A DNA stretch of 32,932 nt from Acetofilamentum sp. (GTDB lineage: Bacteria; Bacteroidota; Bacteroidia; Bacteroidales; DYOH01): the NCBI GenBank assembly GCA_020720625.1, contig DYOH01000002.1, positions 1-32,932 on the forward strand. Reading direction: 5' to 3'. The position numbers and the translations under genes are program-made. Positions within the stretch are counted from its first letter, which is position 1. Every line of letters begins with the position of its first letter. This document shows, one piece after another, positions 9,574 through 19,955 of this stretch. Under the pieces are notes generated by a model. It had not been told where the DNA came from, searched no databases, and saw only the letters and a list, made by a program, of their open reading frames with translations.

Positions 9574-11559
9574 ATGGAGATGCAAAGAAATATCTTAATC
9601 ATTGATGACACGCAAAGCATGTTGCTCCTCTTGAAATTTATGCTGGAAACAACAGGAGAATTTCAAGTTTTTACAGCAGCAAGCGGAAAAGATGGTTTAA
9701 GGCTAATTGAACAAATAAAGCCTGATTTAATTTTATTAGATATTGCAATGCCCGGTTTTAGTGGTTTTGATGTTTGTAAAAACCTTTCAGAGAATAAAGA
9801 AACCAAAGATATTCCAATTATATTTCTTTCGGCATTTACAGATACCTTTCAGAAAATTAAGGCCTTTGAGTTAGGTGGAGTTGACTACATAACCAAACCT
9901 TTTAATGAGGAAGAATTAATTGCTAGAATAAACATCCAGCTTAAAATTGCCAATCTGAACAAACAATTACGCAAATCAAACGAACATTTAGAAGAAAGAG
10001 TAAAACAAAGGACTACCGCTCTTGAGAATGAAATTGCATATAGAAAAGAAACAGAGGAAAAACTGCTTCAAAACCGCAATATGTTGGAACAAATTGCCGA
10101 CAATTCTTCTGCTTTTATTGCGCTTTTAAACACAAAATTAGAGTATATATTTATTAGCAAGGAATACGAGGTTTTTTTTCGTTTACAAAAAGAAAAGCTC
10201 ATTGGCAAAAAAATTAATCAAATTCTTTCTGAAGAATATCTTTCTAAAGCGATGCCTTTTTTAAAAAAAGCCTTGCAAGGCGAAAAAACCAAATTCAGCT
10301 ATTTTGTATTAAATAGTCTGAACGAAAGAAAAGAAGTAAACACCATTTACACACCCTATATTCAAAACAATGAAGTTACAGGAATAATCGTATTGGCCAT
10401 AGACATTACCGAAATAAAAAAAACAGAAGCACTTCTGATAAAAACTCAAAATGAACTAAAAGAAATAAATAACCAGCTGGAAAACAAAATAATAGAAAGA
10501 ACCAAGGAACTTGTTTTAAAAAATGATGAATTATATCAAAGCAAAAATTTGTTTAAATATTTTGTAAATCACTCGGTAAGTTGGGAAATTTTTTGCGACA
10601 AACAAGGAAATCCACTATACTGCACACCAGCATTCGAAAAAATTACCGGCTACAAAATGGAGCAATACTTGCAAGGAATCATCAAAATAAAGGATTTCGT
10701 GATTGATGCAGATAAAGAAAAATATATCCAATATAGCAAGAAAGCCATAAAAGGAGATAATTTTGAAAATCTGGAGTTTCGGATTCTCACAGCAAATAAG
10801 CAAACGAAATACCTATCGAAATCTGTTTTTCAGGTTTACAACCAAAAAAATGAAAGAATAGGATTTAGGGCCGGCCTAATTGATATTAGCAAACAAAAAG
10901 AGGAAAAAGCAGCCAGAATTGCTGCTGAGAATAAGATTTTTAATGCCATTATAGAATCTGAGGAAAAAGAAAGAGCCCACTTTGCCAAAGAACTGCACGA
11001 TGGCATAGGACCTATTCTATCTACTATTAAAATGTTTGCAGAATGGCTTAAAAGACCCGACCTGAAAACACCCAAAGACGAAATTTATAAAAAAATGGAA
11101 TACAGTATAGAAGAAGCCGTTTCTACAGTAAAAGAAATAAGCAATAATCTAAGTCCGCATATTCTGGCCAATTTTGGGCTCGTTTTTGCGCTTAAATCTT
11201 TTATCGAAAAAACCCAAGCTTTAAACAGCCTGGTAATTCATTTTATTACCAATATCAAACAGCGTTTTAGCAACGAAATAGAAATTACCATTTATAGGGC
11301 TTTGCTCGAATGCATCAACAATAGCATAAAACATGCTCAAGCAAAAAACATTAGCATTTCTTTGCAATTAACTAGCGATAAAATAGAAGCTAAATTCTCC
11401 GACGACGGAATTGGTTTCGACTACGATTATGTTATTCAACAACAAAAAGGATTGGGATTATTCAATATTCAAAACCGAATACATACTCTTGGCGGAAATT
11501 TTAAGATACAAAGCGTTATTCATCAAGGTGTTAATATTTGGTTTGAACTATATATTTAA
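9574..11559 (+). CDS. soluble sensor histidine kinase: receiver-PAS-PAS-HisKA_3-HATPase
   Basis: 661 residues with no membrane helix. Residues 5-122 are a receiver domain with acidic D11/D12, phospho-acceptor D56 (DLILLDIAMP), S86 and K108 (YITKPF). A coiled coil (about 123-170) leads to a PAS domain (171-285), a second coiled coil (286-325) and another PAS domain (326-440). The kinase core is of the DesK/NarX type: KERAHFAKELHDGIG with H475, then the HATPase with N-box LLECINNSIKHAQ, G1 FSDDGIGFDYD and G2 GLGLFNIQNR. It should phosphorylate the LuxR-type regulator that starts 13 bases after its stop. The N-terminal receiver implies that it takes a phosphoryl group from another histidine kinase. 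Which one is not shown; the CheA encoded downstream is a candidate. Confidence 0.9.
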   Translation: MEMQRNILIIDDTQSMLLLLKFMLETTGEFQVFTAASGKDGLRLIEQIKPDLILLDIAMPGFSGFDVCKNLSENKETKDIPIIFLSAFTDTFQKIKAFELGGVDYITKPFNEEELIARINIQLKIANLNKQLRKSNEHLEERVKQRTTALENEIAYRKETEEKLLQNRNMLEQIADNSSAFIALLNTKLEYIFISKEYEVFFRLQKEKLIGKKINQILSEEYLSKAMPFLKKALQGEKTKFSYFVLNSLNERKEVNTIYTPYIQNNEVTGIIVLAIDITEIKKTEALLIKTQNELKEINNQLENKIIERTKELVLKNDELYQSKNLFKYFVNHSVSWEIFCDKQGNPLYCTPAFEKITGYKMEQYLQGIIKIKDFVIDADKEKYIQYSKKAIKGDNFENLEFRILTANKQTKYLSKSVFQVYNQKNERIGFRAGLIDISKQKEEKAARIAAENKIFNAIIESEEKERAHFAKELHDGIGPILSTIKMFAEWLKRPDLKTPKDEIYKKMEYSIEEAVSTVKEISNNLSPHILANFGLVFALKSFIEKTQALNSLVIHFITNIKQRFSNEIEITIYRALLECINNSIKHAQAKNISISLQLTSDKIEAKFSDDGIGFDYDYVIQQQKGLGLFNIQNRIHTLGGNFKIQSVIHQGVNIWFELYI

Positions 11560-11572
11560 ACAAATTATCAAA

Positions 11573-12223
11573 ATGAAAAAACCTACAATTATAATTGTCG
11601 ACGACCACGATATCTTCAGAGATGGGTTAAAATCGCTGATTAGCAGCGAAGAACTGGCTGTTATTCAAGGTGAAGCAGCCAATGGAAAAGAATTTCTCAA
11701 ACTTCTGCAAATGCATAATCCGGATGTTGTTTTAATGGATATAGATATGCCCGAAATGAATGGAATTGATGCCACGCGGGAAGCGCTTAAAATAATTCCA
11801 AATTTAAAAATATTGGCGCTAACAATGTTTGGCGACGAATCGTATTATTACAAAATGATTGATGCCGGTGCCAAAGGCTTTTTACTTAAAACTTCCGGTA
11901 TCTCCGAACTCGAAAAGGCTATACAGGCAATTAACGAAGGAGATAGCTTCTTTTCTAACGAAATTCTACTCAATATTATCAATCGAATTTCGAGAAAAGA
12001 ACCAGAAAATCAGGAAAACGACGCTCAACTAACAAAAAGGGAGATTGAAATTTTAAAACTTATTTGCAATGGATACACCAACGAAAAAATGGCCGAAGAA
12101 TTGCATATTAGCCCACAAACAGTAAAAGGACACAGAAGTAAACTGCTCGAAAAAACCAAGAGCAACAATACGGCAAGTATGGTTATTTATGCAATAAAAA
12201 ATAATATCTTTACCATAGAATAA
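11573..12223 (+). CDS. NarL/LuxR-family response regulator
   Basis: 216 residues starting at the ATG at 11573. The frame is open for 54 codons further upstream, but those lie within the kinase gene and add nonsense residues before KKPTIIIVDDHD. The receiver has D10/D11, phospho-acceptor D56 (DVVLMDIDMP), T84 and K106. The C-terminal LuxR-type HTH spans about 151-216 (LTKREIEILKLICNGYTNEK, then MAEELHISPQTVKGHRSKLL). It is a DNA-binding transcription factor, paired with the upstream kinase by position and type (HisKA_3 kinases pair with NarL-type regulators). Two hairpins follow, so the pair forms its own transcription unit. Targets are unknown. Confidence 0.92.
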   Translation: MKKPTIIIVDDHDIFRDGLKSLISSEELAVIQGEAANGKEFLKLLQMHNPDVVLMDIDMPEMNGIDATREALKIIPNLKILALTMFGDESYYYKMIDAGAKGFLLKTSGISELEKAIQAINEGDSFFSNEILLNIINRISRKEPENQENDAQLTKREIEILKLICNGYTNEKMAEELHISPQTVKGHRSKLLEKTKSNNTASMVIYAIKNNIFTIE

Positions 12224-12252
12224 TCTCAGGAAATCTAAAATAAAGCCTATCC

Positions 12253-12288
12253 AAAGCCACATATTTTTATAAATGAATGTGGCTTTTT
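12253..12288 (+). terminator. terminator of the kinase-regulator operon
   Basis: AAAGCCACAT (12253-12262) pairs with ATGTGGCTTT (12277-12286), and the right arm runs into a T5 tract (12284-12288). It begins 29 bases after the regulator stop. Confidence 0.75.
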
Positions 12289-12328
12289 GGTGTAAAAAAC
12301 ATAACCCAAAAGGGTTGTTTTTAACACC
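12289..12328. terminator. second hairpin between regulator and cheA
   Basis: GGTGT (12289-12293) pairs with ACACC (12324-12328), AAAAAC (12295-12300) with GTTTTT (12317-12322), and AACCC (12303-12307) with GGGTT (12312-12316) around an AAAA loop. It directly follows the first terminator and may act as a back-up terminator or as part of the cheA leader region. The rest of the 12224-12591 gap holds a TAnnTTTG box and a 36-codon open frame, listed separately. Confidence 0.45.
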
Positions 12329-12409
12329 ACACAAAAGTTGCAAAAAAAACAGTACTATTATTGCACTAAAACACTACTTTCTAATCTTTTACATCATTTC
12401 AATTTGAAA

Positions 12410-12417
12410 TACATTTG
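12410..12417 (+). promoter_or_regulatory. probable promoter of the cheA operon
   Basis: TACATTTG is a full match to the Bacteroidota -7 consensus. It lies after two terminator-like hairpins and 174 bases before the cheA ATG. The -33 region is only T-rich (TTTTA). Transcription from here would include the small open frame at 12432-12542. Confidence 0.45.
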
Positions 12418-12431
12418 TATTGGATGTTTTA

Positions 12432-12542
12432 ATGAAAGGCAATGGTGCCGGAAAGCAATTTCAACGCTATTTGTACCCGCAATACAATTATGGCCAACCG
12501 GTACCTTTTTCCCCTAATGAACTACTTTTTTCCTATTCATAA
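12432..12542 (+). CDS. possible 36-residue leader ORF upstream of cheA
   Basis: An ATG-to-TAA frame of 36 codons begins 14 bases after the TACATTTG box and ends 49 bases before cheA. The peptide is polar and aromatic (KQFQRYLYPQYNYGQPVPFS) with no signal peptide or membrane helix. No family is recognised. An open frame of this length is expected by chance, so only its position between promoter and operon makes it worth listing. Confidence 0.2.
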   Translation: MKGNGAGKQFQRYLYPQYNYGQPVPFSPNELLFSYS

Positions 12543-12591
12543 AACATCACCCTACTGAAAAAATAAAATTTCGAACCATAATACACATATA

Positions 12592-14631
12592 ATGGATGAA
12601 ATGACATTTATGCAATTTCGTGACCGATTTATAAACGAAGCGCGACAATTGCTGGTAAATCTGGAAAACAGTCTGCTTGAGCTTGAACATCAGCCCAATA
12701 ATAAAGAAATGATTGAAAATGTATTTAGGGTGATGCACACGCTTAAAGGCATTAGCGGCATGTACGGCTTCGATATTATAGGCGATTTTACGCACAATTT
12801 CGAAAGTATCTACCAATTAGTTCGCGATGATAAGACTGTGCTTACTAACGAAATTTTTAATCTCACTTTTCAATCTGTCGATCATATAAATAATTTACTC
12901 AACGATCCTGGTTTAGAAAACGAAGAAAACAAAAATATACATCTAGCCCTCAATGAACAAGTAAAAAACACCATTCGAAATTTAGGTATTCAAAAAGAAC
13001 CAGAGAAAAAAGAAAAAAAAAATACGGATCCTACAGACAAATGTAAATCATTAAAAACATGGTATATACAGATACAGGTTATCAAACAATTCGATTTAAG
13101 AAGCATCAATATCGTAAACCTGTTTTTCGATTTAACGCAAATAGGTAAATACCATGTTGTAAAAGGCGAACCCGATGCAGTTACGCTGAATAACGATGGC
13201 GATTTATGGCGTATTTTTTTGGCTACCGACGCTAACATCGAAGAAATTGAAGATATTTTTCTGTTTATTCTCGACGAATGCAAAATAATAAAACTTGCCG
13301 ACGAAGATTTACTTTCAGGCAATATTCTATTATCAAATTCTGATAATCCAGTATCTCTTTTAAACGAAAACACAATTCTGGAACTTATAGAAAATCAGAA
13401 AATAAGCTCCCAAAACAAAACAAAACAGCAACAAATGAAAGTGGAAGTCGCAGAAAATAATAAAAAATTAATCAATTCTAGAATATCAGTTCATGCAGAA
13501 AAACTAGATACCTTAATGTTCTTGGTTAGCGAACTTGTAACTACAAAATCGGAACTGCAACTTTCTCTCAAAAGCCAAAACATAGCTAAAATAGCTAAAG
13601 TTGCCGAAAAAATAGATAAACTATCTAAACAATTTAGAGATAATGCACTTGATATAAGACTTGTTCCAATAAGCGATTTAATTATCAGATTTAAACGATT
13701 AGTAAGAGATTTATCGCAATCTCTCGATAAAAAAATTGATTTCGTGATTGAAGGTGGAGATACAGAACTGGATAAAAGTATTATTGACAGTATTTCGGAG
13801 CCTCTGATGCATATTATCAGAAATTGCATCGACCATGGCATTGAAACTCCCGAAATGAGAATAAAAAGTCATAAACCGGAAACCGGAATCATAAAATTTA
13901 CTTCTTACCAGGAAGGCAGTTCAATTATTATCGCTGTAGAAGACGACGGGAAAGGTATTGATGCCAATGTGGTTATGCAAAAAGCCATTGAAAAAGGTTT
14001 TATTTCCAGCGATGCAAAACTTAGCGAAAAAGAAATCTATAATCTAATTTTCCTGCCTGGATTATCTACTGCTGAGAGTCTTACGCAAGTATCGGGAAGA
14101 GGCGTAGGAATGGATATTGTAAAAAAGAAATTGGCCGAACTCGGAGCACAAATTGATATTAGTAGTGATATCGGCGTTGGTACAAAATTCACTATTAAAC
14201 TGCATCAAACTATTGCCATTCTGGATACTCTCCTCTTTAGATCAGACGATATGCATTTGCTTATTCCGCTTTCGGACGTAGAAGAATGTAATCTGATAAA
14301 CAAAAATACACTCGAAGCCCATAAAGCTACAGGCACTGTGCCATACAACTACAAATTGATTCCATATATCGATATTTATAAACTATACAACCTGAAAACC
14401 CCTGATACCGAAAGACTAAAATTAATTATTCTGAACAAACAAGACAGCAGATTTGCTATTGCTGCCGATGTGATTATTGGTGAGCACCAGGCTGTTTTAA
14501 AATCCATTGGGAAACAATTAAAAAAACAAGACAATATTTCGGCAGCGAGTATAATGGGCGACGGAAACCTCGCCTTCTTGCTCGATCTTAATTCCTTACA
14601 AAAAATTAATTACGAAACGCAAACTTTTTAA
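12592..14631 (+). CDS. cheA: chemotaxis-type histidine kinase CheA
   Basis: 679 residues with the classical CheA order. The P1/Hpt domain (about 1-130) has phospho-acceptor H49 in VMHTLKGISGMYGF. A P2-like segment (about 155-245) could bind a receiver partner. The P3 dimerisation helices (about 295-365) contain VSELVTTKSELQLS. The P4 ATPase has N-box HIIRNCIDHGIE (N411), G1 VEDDGKGID and G2 SGRGVGMDIV. The P5 CheW-like domain extends from about 540 to the end. No C-terminal receiver is fused. Phosphoryl flow would start at H49 when the receptor-CheW array activates the kinase. The mcp gene begins 11 bases after the stop and cheW follows, so the three form an operon. No cheY, cheB or cheR is present in the window. 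Confidence 0.96.
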   Translation: MDEMTFMQFRDRFINEARQLLVNLENSLLELEHQPNNKEMIENVFRVMHTLKGISGMYGFDIIGDFTHNFESIYQLVRDDKTVLTNEIFNLTFQSVDHINNLLNDPGLENEENKNIHLALNEQVKNTIRNLGIQKEPEKKEKKNTDPTDKCKSLKTWYIQIQVIKQFDLRSINIVNLFFDLTQIGKYHVVKGEPDAVTLNNDGDLWRIFLATDANIEEIEDIFLFILDECKIIKLADEDLLSGNILLSNSDNPVSLLNENTILELIENQKISSQNKTKQQQMKVEVAENNKKLINSRISVHAEKLDTLMFLVSELVTTKSELQLSLKSQNIAKIAKVAEKIDKLSKQFRDNALDIRLVPISDLIIRFKRLVRDLSQSLDKKIDFVIEGGDTELDKSIIDSISEPLMHIIRNCIDHGIETPEMRIKSHKPETGIIKFTSYQEGSSIIIAVEDDGKGIDANVVMQKAIEKGFISSDAKLSEKEIYNLIFLPGLSTAESLTQVSGRGVGMDIVKKKLAELGAQIDISSDIGVGTKFTIKLHQTIAILDTLLFRSDDMHLLIPLSDVEECNLINKNTLEAHKATGTVPYNYKLIPYIDIYKLYNLKTPDTERLKLIILNKQDSRFAIAADVIIGEHQAVLKSIGKQLKKQDNISAASIMGDGNLAFLLDLNSLQKINYETQTF

Positions 14632-14642
14632 TATGAATTACT

Positions 14643-16556
14643 ATGAACAACTTTAAAATCAGATCAAAACTTTTGGCTAGTTTTCTGCTCATTGTAGCAT
14701 TAACCGCATTTTTAGGTTATTTATCGATTACAAATATAACTAAAATTGATAATACTGATATTGAGCTTTATGAAACAAAACTTGTTCCAATGGAATATGT
14801 AACACAAACAGCTACCTTATTTCAAAGACTAAGGGTAAACTATCGCGATATGATTTTTGCTAAAACCGAGGACGAAGTAGAACACTACTATAACCAAATT
14901 GGCGAATTAGACAAAGAGATGGATGCTGCTATTGCAAATTACTCCAAAACCGCCTTTACCGAAGAAAACAAAAAATTGGTAAAAGAAATTATCAAAAGCA
15001 AAAAAGTAGTGATGGCCTATATGCCCCAATTGAAAAAAATCTCACTACAAAACAATGATTCTTTGGCAATTGTTTTTATAAACGGTGATATGCACTCTAA
15101 AGCTAACGAAATGAGAGATTTACTCAACGAATTTGTTGAATATAACGTATCTCATGGGAAAATTTTGACCGATGCAAATACTGTGCTTACAAAAAGCGTT
15201 AACAACATTCTTCTTATCGCAATTTTTTCTATTGTTTTAATATCCATAATATTAGCCTTTAGTATTGCCACCAATATACAAAACATTATTAAATCGGTTA
15301 TAAAACAAACCAGCGAATTGGTAGATGCTACTATTGGCGGCAGACTAGCCACAAGAGCGCGCCCCGAAGACACAAACGAGGAATTTAGAGAAATTGTAAT
15401 TGGCATTAACAAAACACTCGACGCAGTTATTAACCCGCTTAATGTTGCCGCCGAATACGTGGACAAAATATCCAAAGGAAACATTCCTCCTATAATAACT
15501 GATTCGTACAACGGAGATTTCAACGATATAAAAAACAATTTAAATCTATTAATTACATCTACCAACGATATTACAGAGAAAGCTAAAAAAATATCTCAGG
15601 GTGATTTAACTGTTCAGCTAAAAAAACGCTCTGAGAACGACGAATTAATCTCGGCACTTTCTGATATGATAGACAAACTTATTGATGTAATAACCAATAT
15701 AATAGGTGGAGCCAACAACATTGCAATCGCCAGCTCGGAAATGAGTTCGGCCTCGCAGCAAATCTCTGAAGGAACATCAGAACAAGCATCTTCGGTAGAA
15801 GAAGTTACATCGTCGGTTGAAGAAATGAACGCCAATATTATTCAAAACACTGACAATGCCGTACAAACTGAAAAAATTGCACTCAAATCATCGTCAGATA
15901 TTGAAGAAGCTAATAGCGCAGTGGATATTACTGTAAAAGCGATGATTGAGATTGCAGAAAAATTAGTAATTATCAACGAAATTGCAGAAAAAACGGACAT
16001 ACTCGCTATTAATGCCGCCATTGAAGCAGCTCGCGCCGGCGAACATGGAAAAGGATTTGCGGTGGTTGCCGCAGAAGTTCGTAAATTGGCAGAAAATAGC
16101 CAAATTGCTGCCAAAGAAATTAGCGAAGTAACCAAAAAAAGTGTGGATATTTCTAAAAATGCAGGTGTACTACTTTCTAAAGTGGTTCCTGATATTCAGA
16201 GAACTACCGGATTAGTGCAAGAAATTGCCGCTGCCAGCCGCGTACAAAATTTGGGTGCTAACCAAATAAGTAACGCCATGTCTCAGCTCAACAACGTGGT
16301 GCAACAAAATGCCGCTAGTGCAGAAGAATTATCAAGCAATGCAGAAGAATTAGCAGCTCAGGCCGAAGTACTTAAAGACTTAGTTACCTTCTTTAAACTT
16401 AACGAAAACGCTTTAAAAAAAGCCAAAGTTTTAAACAAACAAATTTCGTTTACTCACCAGCCTGCAGCTAAACATAAAGTAGCTGCAAATAAGCCAACAT
16501 CAAACATTAAAATAAATATGGATGATGATATGGACAAAGATTTCACTAAATTTTAA
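14643..16556 (+). CDS. methyl-accepting chemotaxis protein (transmembrane receptor)
   Basis: 637 residues. TM1 is at about 7-29 ([18 protein letters not shown]). A helical periplasmic sensor of about 150 residues resembles the 4HB_MCP family. TM2 is at about 186-212 ([20 protein letters not shown]), followed by HAMP and HAMP-like segments and a long cytoplasmic coiled coil. The conserved hairpin tip is near 449-490 ([20 protein letters not shown], then [16 protein letters not shown]). It should bind CheA and CheW at the membrane. The C-terminus ends in an acidic [12 protein letters not shown] and lacks an E. coli-type NWETF tether for CheR. An ATG at 14634 leads to an early stop, so 14643 is the start. 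The ligand is unknown. Confidence 0.94.
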
Positions 16557-16567
16557 ATTGAAAACTC

Positions 16568-17059
16568 ATGGTAAATTTTAATGAAATAAAAACATATCTT
16601 TCGTTTATTATTGATAACGAGTATTTTGCAGTAAATGTAAGCAAAGTACTAGAAGTACTTCAATCTCAGAAGATTACAAGAGTACCCAATGTTTCAAACG
16701 ATATTAAAGGTGTGATCAATTTTAGAGGTGAGATTATTCCTGTTTTCGAAATGAGAACAAGATTTGGCTTGCCGGATAGAGCGCTAGATGACAAATACGT
16801 AATTATTGTACTCGAAATTACCTCAAAAAATACCAAATCTGTTATTGGTGCCATAGCCAATAGAGTGAAGGATGTAATTACAATTGAAAATAATGATATT
16901 ATGGCTGTTCCAAAAATGAACACAAAAATTAACGTTGACCTAATTACCGGAATTATCAAACTAAAAGATGATTTTATAATGATGCTTGATGTAGACAAAA
17001 TGTTCTCTGAGCAAGAACTCGAAGTACTAAGCCAAATGGTTTCTGAAAAACAGCAATAA
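16568..17059 (+). CDS. cheW: chemotaxis coupling protein CheW
   Basis: 163 residues forming a single CheW domain: KTYLSFIIDNEYFAVNVSKV, VLEVLQSQKITRVPNV, then KGVINFRGEIIPVFEMRTRF, and later GAIANRVKDVITI and FIMMLDVDKMF. It links the receptor to CheA in the array. It starts 11 bases after the mcp stop and is the last gene of the operon; a strong terminator follows. Confidence 0.95.
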   Translation: MVNFNEIKTYLSFIIDNEYFAVNVSKVLEVLQSQKITRVPNVSNDIKGVINFRGEIIPVFEMRTRFGLPDRALDDKYVIIVLEITSKNTKSVIGAIANRVKDVITIENNDIMAVPKMNTKINVDLITGIIKLKDDFIMMLDVDKMFSEQELEVLSQMVSEKQQ

Positions 17060-17090: not shown

Positions 17091-17130
17091 CAACTCCGGC
17101 TATGCGCAAGCATACCGGAGTTGATTTTCT
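17091..17130 (+). terminator. terminator of the cheA-mcp-cheW operon
   Basis: CAACTCCGG (17091-17099) pairs with CCGGAGTTG (17115-17123), and TATGC (17101-17105) with GCATA (17110-17114), around a GCAA tetraloop with one bulged C. A TTTT tract follows at 17125-17128. A TATCTTTG element further on (17163-17170) has no convincing downstream gene. Confidence 0.85.
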
Positions 17131-17279: not shown

Positions 17280-17735
17280 TTAGAAAAAACGCCCATCCAA
17301 CGCTTCAATAATGATGTTATGGTCTTCTTCGTCGTGCAAGCCTGATACTGTAATTGTAGCCACCATGCCTGCTCCACTAACAAAAATGGGTATTGAACCT
17401 CCCTTGGCTAAATAATCTTTTCCATCTAAACCAAAAGTACTCTCCAATGCCATATTTCCTTGTATTAAATCATGTTTCACACTTAAAGAACTTTCTTCGA
17501 ACTGCTTAGCTACATTTGCTTTTCGTCTGAGCCAATTATGCTTATCTACAGGCAAATAATCATCAATAAATAAAAATATAGTTTGGTTTAATCTGGCTAT
17601 TTCTAAAGCAATTTGCTGATTTCGCTGCCTGGCTAAATCAATAATGGCCAGCCCCATGTCCATAGCTAATTTGTTCGAAAAATTATTCAACTCTATTTTT
17701 CTGATTATTTTTTTATCTAAATCTAAACTTTTCAT
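17280..17735 (-). CDS. UPF0303 / HbpS-like (DUF336) protein
   Basis: 151 residues matching the COG4702/PF03928 fold. Marks are the helical opening (LAMDMGLAIIDLARQRNQQI), FIDDYLPVDKHNWLRRKANV, an ESTFGLDGKDYLAKGGSIPI segment and the closing VATITVSGLHDEEDH. Related domains (HbpS, GlcG, YBR137W-like) bind haem or act as small assembly factors; no enzymatic role is shown here. There is no signal peptide, so it is probably cytoplasmic. It stands alone between the chemosensory operon and the restriction system, on the opposite strand to both the preceding and the following gene. Confidence 0.82.
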   Translation of the reverse strand: MKSLDLDKKIIRKIELNNFSNKLAMDMGLAIIDLARQRNQQIALEIARLNQTIFLFIDDYLPVDKHNWLRRKANVAKQFEESSLSVKHDLIQGNMALESTFGLDGKDYLAKGGSIPIFVSGAGMVATITVSGLHDEEDHNIIIEALDGRFF

Positions 17736-17970: not shown

Positions 17971-19215
17971 ATGGTTATAAAAGAATATTTCTCATTGTCG
18001 GAAGCATCAGAATTAATCGGTAAAAGTAAGGAAACTCTAAGACGGTGGGACAGAGACGGTAAATTATCAGCAGTTCGTGAGCCAATAAGCAATTATCGTG
18101 TTTATTCAAAACAACAAGTTTTAGAATTGTTTTCAGACTTTATACCAGAAAACAACGGTGAAACTGTAACTAATTACGTTGAAGCAGATAAGGAATATAT
18201 GGTTTTAGAATTATTTGCAGGCGCAGGAGGTTTAGCTGTAGGACTTGAAAAATCAGGATTAAAATGTGCAGCATTAAACGAGATTGATAAATGGGCATGT
18301 AATACACTACGGAAAAATCGTCCAAATTGGAAAGTTCTCGAAGGTGATATAAAAGACTTTGATTTTTCGGAATATCATAATAAAATTGATGTGGTTACAG
18401 GCGGTTTTCCCTGCCAAGCATTTAGTTACGCCGGAAAAAAATTAGGCTTTGCGGATGCCAGGGGTACTTTGTTTTATGAATTTGCAAGAGTTGTAAAAGA
18501 AGTAAATCCACCAATTTGTGTTGGAGAAAATGTTCGTGGACTTTTAAGCCACGAAAACGGAAAAACGTTACAAGGAATGATTTCTGTTTTAGATGAAATT
18601 GGATATAATATAGTTCCTATTCAAGTATTGAAAGCTATAAATTTTAAAGTTCCACAAAAACGTGAACGTCTTATACTTGTAGGTATAAGAAAAGATATTG
18701 ATATTAAATTTGAATATCCAAAACCTTATAAAAAAATCTATAATTTAGAATCTGCATTAAAAAAAGGCGAATTATTCGATTGTGACGTACCAGAATCAAT
18801 CGGTGCAAAATATCCTAAAAGTAAAATTGAAGTTTTAGATTTAGTGCCCCCTAAAGGTTATTGGCGTGATTTGCCATTGGATATACAGAAAAAATTTATG
18901 GGTGGAAGTTTTTATCTTGGGGGTGGAAAAACAGGTATTGCAAGACGAATTGGTTGGGACGAACCTTGTCTTACATTAACTTGCAGTCCGGCACAAAAGC
19001 AAACAGAACGATGTCATCCAGATGAGACAAGGCCATTCACGGTTCGAGAGTATGCCAGAATACAAACATTTCCTGATGACTGGGAATTTGATGGTTCTAT
19101 TGCACAACAATACAAACAAATAGGAAATGCTGTTCCAGTTAATCTTGGTACCGAAGTTGGTTACTCGCTAGTAAATTTTTTAAATAAATACTATAAATCA
19201 TTAAATCCCAAATAA
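17971..19215 (+). CDS. DNA (cytosine-5) methyltransferase with N-terminal MerR-like HTH (type II R-M)
   Basis: 414 residues. Residues 6-52 are a MerR-like helix-turn-helix (SLSEASELIGKSKETLRRWD, NYRVYSKQQVLELF). The C5-methyltransferase core follows in the normal order: motif I LELFAGAGGLAVGLEKSG (from about 79), motif IV GGFPCQAFS with catalytic C148, motif VI ENVRG, motif VIII QKRERLILVG, a target-recognition region (about 255-340), motif IX REYARIQTFPDDW and motif X QIGNAVPVNLG. It transfers a methyl group from SAM to cytosine and protects the host from the convergent Eco47II-like nuclease, so GGNCC is the probable target (inferred from the partner). The HTH may let the enzyme repress its own gene, in place of a separate control protein. 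The 3' end overlaps that of the nuclease gene by 25 bases. Confidence 0.93.
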   Translation: MVIKEYFSLSEASELIGKSKETLRRWDRDGKLSAVREPISNYRVYSKQQVLELFSDFIPENNGETVTNYVEADKEYMVLELFAGAGGLAVGLEKSGLKCAALNEIDKWACNTLRKNRPNWKVLEGDIKDFDFSEYHNKIDVVTGGFPCQAFSYAGKKLGFADARGTLFYEFARVVKEVNPPICVGENVRGLLSHENGKTLQGMISVLDEIGYNIVPIQVLKAINFKVPQKRERLILVGIRKDIDIKFEYPKPYKKIYNLESALKKGELFDCDVPESIGAKYPKSKIEVLDLVPPKGYWRDLPLDIQKKFMGGSFYLGGGKTGIARRIGWDEPCLTLTCSPAQKQTERCHPDETRPFTVREYARIQTFPDDWEFDGSIAQQYKQIGNAVPVNLGTEVGYSLVNFLNKYYKSLNPK

Positions 19216-19955
19216 TAATTGTAATTCTCGAAAGTTATTTGATTCAGAATACTTCGTTTGGATGTTTTTGTCTCATTTTTTATTTCTTCTAAAGCTGAAT
19301 TTTGATCCGTAGATTCATCTTGTTCAATATTTCTTAGGAAATCATTTATTGCATTTGGTAAGGCTTTGTATAATTGGAACAAAGCATCATCCATACCTGT
19401 TAATAGTGCATAGAATTGGTCGCCCGAAATTTTATAAACTCTACTATGGCTATATTCTTTTCCATTTATTTCACCGCTCCAAAGTTCGTAAAAACTGCTT
19501 TTTGCTAGAATCTGCACCCAGTAGCATTTTGCTTTTTTGTAAGAATCTGCATATCGGGCAAGTTTTTGAAAAAGTGCTTCGGAAGAACTGCTATTCATTG
19601 TATTATGTTTATTCTTTATATCTGCAAATAATGTATCGTCTGTTGCTTTTATATCAAAACCACTCAGAACTCCAACTTCGTAACCCGGAATTCCGCCCAA
19701 AACTTGCTCATGAAATGTTCCGATGGAATTATTTATTGATTTGTCGATTTGCCTCAGAATTTCAGCTTGAATTAAACTCTCTTCATTGATATTATTAAAA
19801 TTTGAATCAAATGTTAGTTTAATGGTATCTACTTTGTTGCTATAAAAATTCTTTTTCGAAACGTTGCTTTTTGCCTTTAAGTATGATTTATAAAGATTTG
19901 CAATACATTTTAGTAAATGATCATCCGAAATATAACTTACATACCTGTTTTCCAT
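19191..19955 (-). CDS. type II restriction endonuclease, Eco47II/Sau96I-like
   Basis: 254 residues resembling the RE_Eco47II family (PF09553), whose members cut GGNCC. Supporting segments are INNSIGTFHEQVLGGIPGYE, GFDIKATDDTLFADIKNKHN (a plausible PD-(D/E)XK active site with D101 and D112-x-K114), KCYWVQILAK and the SGDQFYALLTGMDDALFQLY block, which follows the family pattern closely. It is convergent with the methyltransferase, overlapping by 25 bases at the stops. This arrangement is common in R-M pairs, and the overlap may give antisense control. The frame is intact, so the system is probably active. The specificity is inferred by family and needs testing. Confidence 0.82.
   Translation of the reverse strand: MENRYVSYISDDHLLKCIANLYKSYLKAKSNVSKKNFYSNKVDTIKLTFDSNFNNINEESLIQAEILRQIDKSINNSIGTFHEQVLGGIPGYEVGVLSGFDIKATDDTLFADIKNKHNTMNSSSSEALFQKLARYADSYKKAKCYWVQILAKSSFYELWSGEINGKEYSHSRVYKISGDQFYALLTGMDDALFQLYKALPNAINDFLRNIEQDESTDQNSALEEIKNETKTSKRSILNQITFENYNYYLGFNDL

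Follow-up and report, generated by a model that had tools for sequence, protein, structure and literature searches.

The stretch of DNA analysed here (the window) comprises 32,932 nucleotides, positions 1-32,932 of the forward strand of contig DYOH01000002.1 from Acetofilamentum sp. (GCA_020720625.1). The genome to which it belongs (labelled G000, with C33, C59, C66, C68 and C81 among its contigs) is 3.80 Mb in size and 98.5% complete, and the chemosensory (che) or HisKA_3/NarL loci with which the window was compared are denoted by L and a number. Five intact genes were identified by ORF calling and Pfam, which bears out the layout proposed in a first-pass annotation: a REC-PAS-PAS-HisKA_3 sensor kinase, a NarL-type response regulator, cheA, mcp and cheW. 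These genes and the features within and after them lie on the forward strand. The kinase (9574..11559) comprises a receiver at residues 7-120 (D56), two PAS domains, a HisKA_3 domain at residues 466-529 (H475) and a HATPase domain. Its N-terminal receiver (9592..9933) is of the VDYITKPF type, and falls outside the group of CheA-adjacent CheY proteins in a receiver tree built on few alignment columns. The regulator (11573..12223; 216 aa) starts at the first Met at 11573, not at the TTG at 11411, and combines a receiver (D56) with a GerE/LuxR DNA-binding domain in which the TVKGHR motif is intact in alignment.

Kinase and regulator are separated by 13 bp and followed by a hairpin with a T run (12253..12290; about -14.5 kcal/mol). 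After a spacer of 368 bp between the regulator and cheA comes a second unit, with internal spacers of 11 bp, consisting of cheA (12592..14631; P1/Hpt with H49, P2, P3, P4 and P5, from Pfam, alignment, AlphaFold2 and trees), the chemoreceptor gene mcp (14643..16556; 4HB sensor, HAMP and MCP signalling domains) and the gene for the coupling protein CheW (16568..17059). This unit ends in a strong hairpin and T run (17092..17127), part of a -27.6 fold, and the separate terminators described in the first-pass annotation are thus present, the strong one after cheW. A promoter scan of the window gave matches no more numerous than in shuffled sequences. The phospho-acceptor and catalytic residues checked are all kept (D56 and H475 of the kinase, D56 of the regulator, and H49 with the N, G1 and G2 boxes of CheA), the kinase D56 and CheA H49 having been named earlier. 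The window therefore holds an adjacent HisKA_3-NarL two-component pair with intact catalytic residues, and a chemosensory core in which a CheA with Hpt histidine, dimerisation, HATPase and CheW domains shares an operon with an MCP and CheW.

The P2 domain of CheA, at about residues 150-240 (13039..13311), was missed by Pfam. Its AlphaFold2 model is ferredoxin-like (residues 155-236), and Foldseek ranks the CheA P2-CheY complex 1u0s first among PDB structures (E 0.0012), which is supportive only as the fold is a common one; there is also a weak profile match of the region to the same 1u0s chain. Because a second look with VIA-align ties the domain with other ferredoxin-like folds (Z 7.1), the assignment to P2 is based on where it lies in CheA, on 1u0s coming first in Foldseek and on the profile match. 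The normal role of P2 is the docking of a receiver, so the modelled domain indicates that the window CheA probably retains a receiver partner.

CheY, CheB and CheR are all absent from the window, where no cheY lies beside cheA and no cheR and cheB accompany it. The earlier description of an array without these proteins therefore holds for the window and fails for the genome, which encodes a full che operon on contig C81 (STAS-cheY-cheA-cheW-mcp-cheW-cheR-HisKA-cheD-cheB), a second cheY-cheA pair on C33, a cheR-cheR-cheB set on C66, an orphan cheW on C59, and 19 MCP-signal matches in total. The window receptor ends in DFTKF (16539..16553), which resembles the CheR/CheB tether pentapeptide, with aromatic residues at positions 2 and 5 (PMC7390727). 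Among eight MCP C-termini read in this genome, tether-like tails occur in two, those of the window receptor (KDFTKF) and the C81 receptor (NEFEKF), and such a tail is also found on most receptors at related loci. Since the window tail is tether-like in the same way as that of the C81 receptor, the CheR and CheB encoded on C81 are likely to adapt the window receptor in trans.

CheA proteins and their gene neighbourhoods were gathered from 43 genomes (this one and its relatives) by CheA similarity alone, and further CheA proteins were added by searching 393 genomes of the order with a profile, a search in which a clear score gap was seen and up to three candidates per genome were scored. In the CheA tree for this order the window protein lies inside a 37-member clade, here called W (SH-aLRT 98), apart from 46 canonical che loci. 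Within the sample clade W was seen only in the order Bacteroidales, and none of about 390 genomes searched phylum-wide yielded a clade-W CheA outside the order (best two candidates per genome scored). A stand-alone cheY lies directly upstream of cheA at 4 of 37 clade-W loci, as against 49 of 61 others. The C81 operon has the same CheA/MCP/CheW core and receptor tail as the window, but it includes cheY, cheR, cheD and cheB, and its CheA belongs to another clade, beside which the HisKA_3/NarL pair was never found (0/46).

HisKA_3 kinases are rare in these bacteria, with two matches in G000 and 81 across 16 genomes. Nevertheless, in the 16 genomes counted, one lies within four genes of cheA at 14 of 29 clade-W loci, where 0.29 would be expected from the HisKA_3 counts. 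Many of the relatives are fragmented metagenome-assembled genomes, with some loci cut at contig ends. Set against the canonical loci, the frequency is 14/35 for clade W versus 0/46 (p 1e-6, Fisher), a figure that ignores relatedness among loci which are not independent of one another, and that leaves out two clade-W loci found through NarL. Those two linked loci (L318 and L323) emerged from a sampling of HisKA_3/NarL pairs based on NarL similarity, and at L306, L307 and L313 such pairs adjoin MCP or CheW genes. The pair is upstream of cheA in the window and at L070, L074, L081, L254, L264 and L265, downstream at L073 and L075, and on the other strand at L132, L266 and L268. HisKA_3 linkage changed state at least ten times inside clade W which, together with the differing arrangements, indicates that it has been kept or regained through rearrangement. 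Conserved adjacency, proposed in the first-pass annotation as a check on its reading, thus recurs in many families of the order, and on these comparative grounds the array and the HisKA_3/NarL pair are probably functionally linked in clade W. The genome has just one further HisKA_3/NarL pair (L322:4416-7370, on C68), which is flanked by two stand-alone receivers, with no che genes nearby.

Every linked locus has a NarL-type receiver, which also occurs at L255, L267 and L065, where there is no kinase near. At L065 and L318 it lacks the GerE domain and lies directly upstream of cheA, in the usual place of cheY. In a sister group of CheA proteins (L091, L101, L110, L114, L118, L271 and L272) the gene between the HisKA_3 kinase and cheA encodes a fusion of two receivers, one NarL-type and the other CheY-type; the CheY half groups with CheA-adjacent CheY proteins in the receiver tree, which has few columns. 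NarL-receiver/CheY fusions were found in 11 of 393 genomes. At L134 (7274-8035) a receiver-receiver fusion has no HisKA_3 nearby; its NarL half has neither acidic pocket nor Pfam signal and its CheY half is intact. The joint loss of the kinase and of the NarL half suggests that, in fusions of this type, HisKA_3 feeds the NarL half and CheA feeds the CheY half.

The NarL proteins beside cheA do not form a clade of their own in the receiver tree, being intermixed with unlinked NarL proteins of the same genomes. They do differ in the recognition helix of GerE, which lacks the consensus at L073, L074, L075, L081 and L265 (with no Pfam GerE match at L081 and L265). Such degeneration affects 5 of 18 cheA-adjacent NarL proteins, versus 0 of 17 sampled away from cheA (p 0.03, ignoring relatedness, in a comparison picked after seeing the data). 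As the window helix is intact and those of some relatives are degenerate, the window regulator is likely to act by binding DNA, which is less likely for the regulators at these five loci.

The kinase receivers are more variable. They are found on the HisKA_3 kinases of ten loci (the window, L070, L073, L081, L132, L254, L264, L265, L268 and L323), with a degenerate domain at L268, and are missing from the kinases at L074, L075, L266, L318 and L258, the last a short kinase. In the receiver tree, again with few columns, they fall into two unrelated groups, neither of which includes the CheY encoded beside cheA; the idea that they are displaced CheY proteins was rejected for this lack of grouping.

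This variability bears on how CheA might reach the regulator. The first-pass annotation pictured the array as wired to gene expression via the neighbouring HisKA_3/NarL pair, the link being phosphorylation of the kinase receiver by CheA. Conserved adjacency upholds the broad idea and not that route. CheA would phosphorylate D56 of the N-terminal receiver and so tune the kinase and, through it, NarL~P, a mechanism proven in Rhodospirillum centenum, where CheA3 phosphorylates the receiver of the kinase CheS3 (PMC3868531). As in the CheA3-CheS3-CheY3 system, a che cluster is accompanied in the window by a kinase with an N-terminal receiver, which is intact, and a receiver is borne by the HisKA_3 kinases of the ten loci listed above; in R. 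centenum CheA regulates this second kinase (PMC3868531). However, CheA3 is a hybrid of CheA and a receiver, and CheS3 signals onward to CheY3, which stands alone, whereas the window has a CheA without receiver, a predicted output through a NarL regulator, and a kinase receiver that is not conserved, being absent at five linked loci, degenerate at another, and of two unrelated types that are not CheY-like. Moreover, loci with the fusion retain the kinase receiver even though CheA there has a CheY-domain partner. We regard a route through the kinase receiver as possible but unlikely, and do not prefer it. Convergence of array and kinase on the NarL-type regulator is preferred because the kinase receiver varies or is lost in relatives and the NarL-type receiver is not.

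An alternative that we find equally doubtful is that the array signals via the CheY of C81 or C33, and that the HisKA_3/NarL pair either controls how the array is expressed or responds to the same stimulus, with no phosphoryl exchange between them. The two CheY genes adjoin other cheA genes in this genome, the window and C81 receptors have the same kind of tail, so that components are probably shared, and the window genes form separate transcription units, all of which fit such an arrangement. It leaves unexplained, however, why receivers of these same two modules are fused, why some GerE domains are degenerate, and why GerE-less NarL-type receivers occupy the usual place of cheY at L065 and L318. 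That the neighbourhood reflects chance or shared descent only is very improbable, for although the separate terminators make linkage in the window by itself a matter of proximity, the excess of observed over expected linkages, the rearranged gene orders, the fusions and the recurrence in many families all speak against it.

We propose instead that the five genes of the window form one system, in which the array and the HisKA_3 kinase converge on the NarL-type regulator, a reading that we prefer to its rivals and judge about as likely as not to be right. The receptor-CheW-CheA array and the PAS-containing kinase would be two sensory inputs. The kinase would phosphorylate NarL, as in known pairs, and CheA would raise or lower the level of NarL~P; its most likely point of action would be the NarL-type receiver, and the kinase receiver might provide another. 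The regulator would then control transcription, and CheR and CheB of the main che operon would adapt the receptor in trans. The recurrence of the pairing in many relatives, well beyond chance, suggests that the array in these Bacteroidales controls genes rather than movement.

Several observations weigh against convergence on the regulator. The window genes are in two units with separate terminators and a gap of 368 bp, and linkage is confined to about half of the loci in clade W. The natural target of CheA in the fusions is the CheY half, so CheA need not act on NarL receivers, and the two cheA-adjacent CheY proteins of this genome could serve the window CheA in trans. Where the DNA-binding domain is degenerate (L073, L074, L075, L081 and L265) the output may not be transcription.

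A precedent for two kinases acting on one regulator is found in Myxococcus xanthus, in which CrdA~P is under the joint control of CrdS and CheA3 (PMC3510030). In the Che3/CrdSA system, as proposed here, a chemosensory CheA works together with a histidine kinase on a single DNA-binding response regulator (PMC3510030). CrdA is a sigma-54 activator of the NtrC type and CrdS a HisKA-family kinase, however, whereas the window regulator is REC-GerE by Pfam, of the NarL type, and its kinase is a HisKA_3 protein. The window system also differs from Che3 in coming from Bacteroidales and in having a P2-bearing CheA, the action of which on NarL is inferred only. Both M. xanthus and R. centenum offer proven cases of CheA input into a two-component pair, and the comparative evidence fits the M. 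xanthus pattern better than that of R. centenum. NarX/NarL-like pairs likewise consist of a HisKA_3 kinase adjoining a NarL-family regulator, but are distinct from the system described here in its recurrent association with a chemoreceptor array, its receiver fusions and its GerE-less forms.

More tentatively, and with somewhat less confidence than we attach to the five-gene system, there may be a chemosensory class confined to Bacteroidales, in which an array with a P2-bearing CheA and a HisKA_3 kinase come together at a single NarL-type receiver. Its output end would have evolved from DNA binding, through degenerate or lost GerE domains, to the NarL-receiver/CheY fusion as a two-input receiver adaptor. 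The outputs of most non-motility chemosensory systems are unknown, and hardly any paper in the literature searched covers Bacteroidales; no CheA-NarL or CheA-HisKA_3 system of this order was found in that search, many subscription papers being out of reach. The recurrent association of an array with a kinase-regulator module names a likely output protein, and the receiver fusions are a way of joining two kinase pathways at the level of the receiver.

Some related loci hold further genes. A minimal CheR of about 201 aa, which consists of the methylase domain alone, adjoins clade-W cheA at L255 (6243-7462), L256, L257, L264 and L267, and is followed by a small gene at all of these except L264. 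At L255, L256 and L267 the small gene reads as a metallo-beta-lactamase-fold protein, the one at L255 weakly matching the ODP (oxygen-binding diiron protein) family; it is possible that this protein is a soluble sensor for the array. Elsewhere in the genome, the cheA-cheY pair of C33 (L029:4024-7976) is without array genes, as are those at L080 and L093. Pairs of this type lie tail to tail with a DUF6272 (SiaB-like) gene and two SiaC genes, a SpoIIE-type phosphatase being encoded close by, and their CheA is perhaps tied to a partner-switch pathway.

Within the window, an HbpS-like haem protein gene (17280-17735, minus strand) lies directly past the cheW terminator. At 17971-19955, the gene for a C5-cytosine methylase that has a MerR-type HTH at its N-terminus is convergent with that for an Eco47II-type restriction enzyme, the ends of the two genes overlapping by 25 bp.
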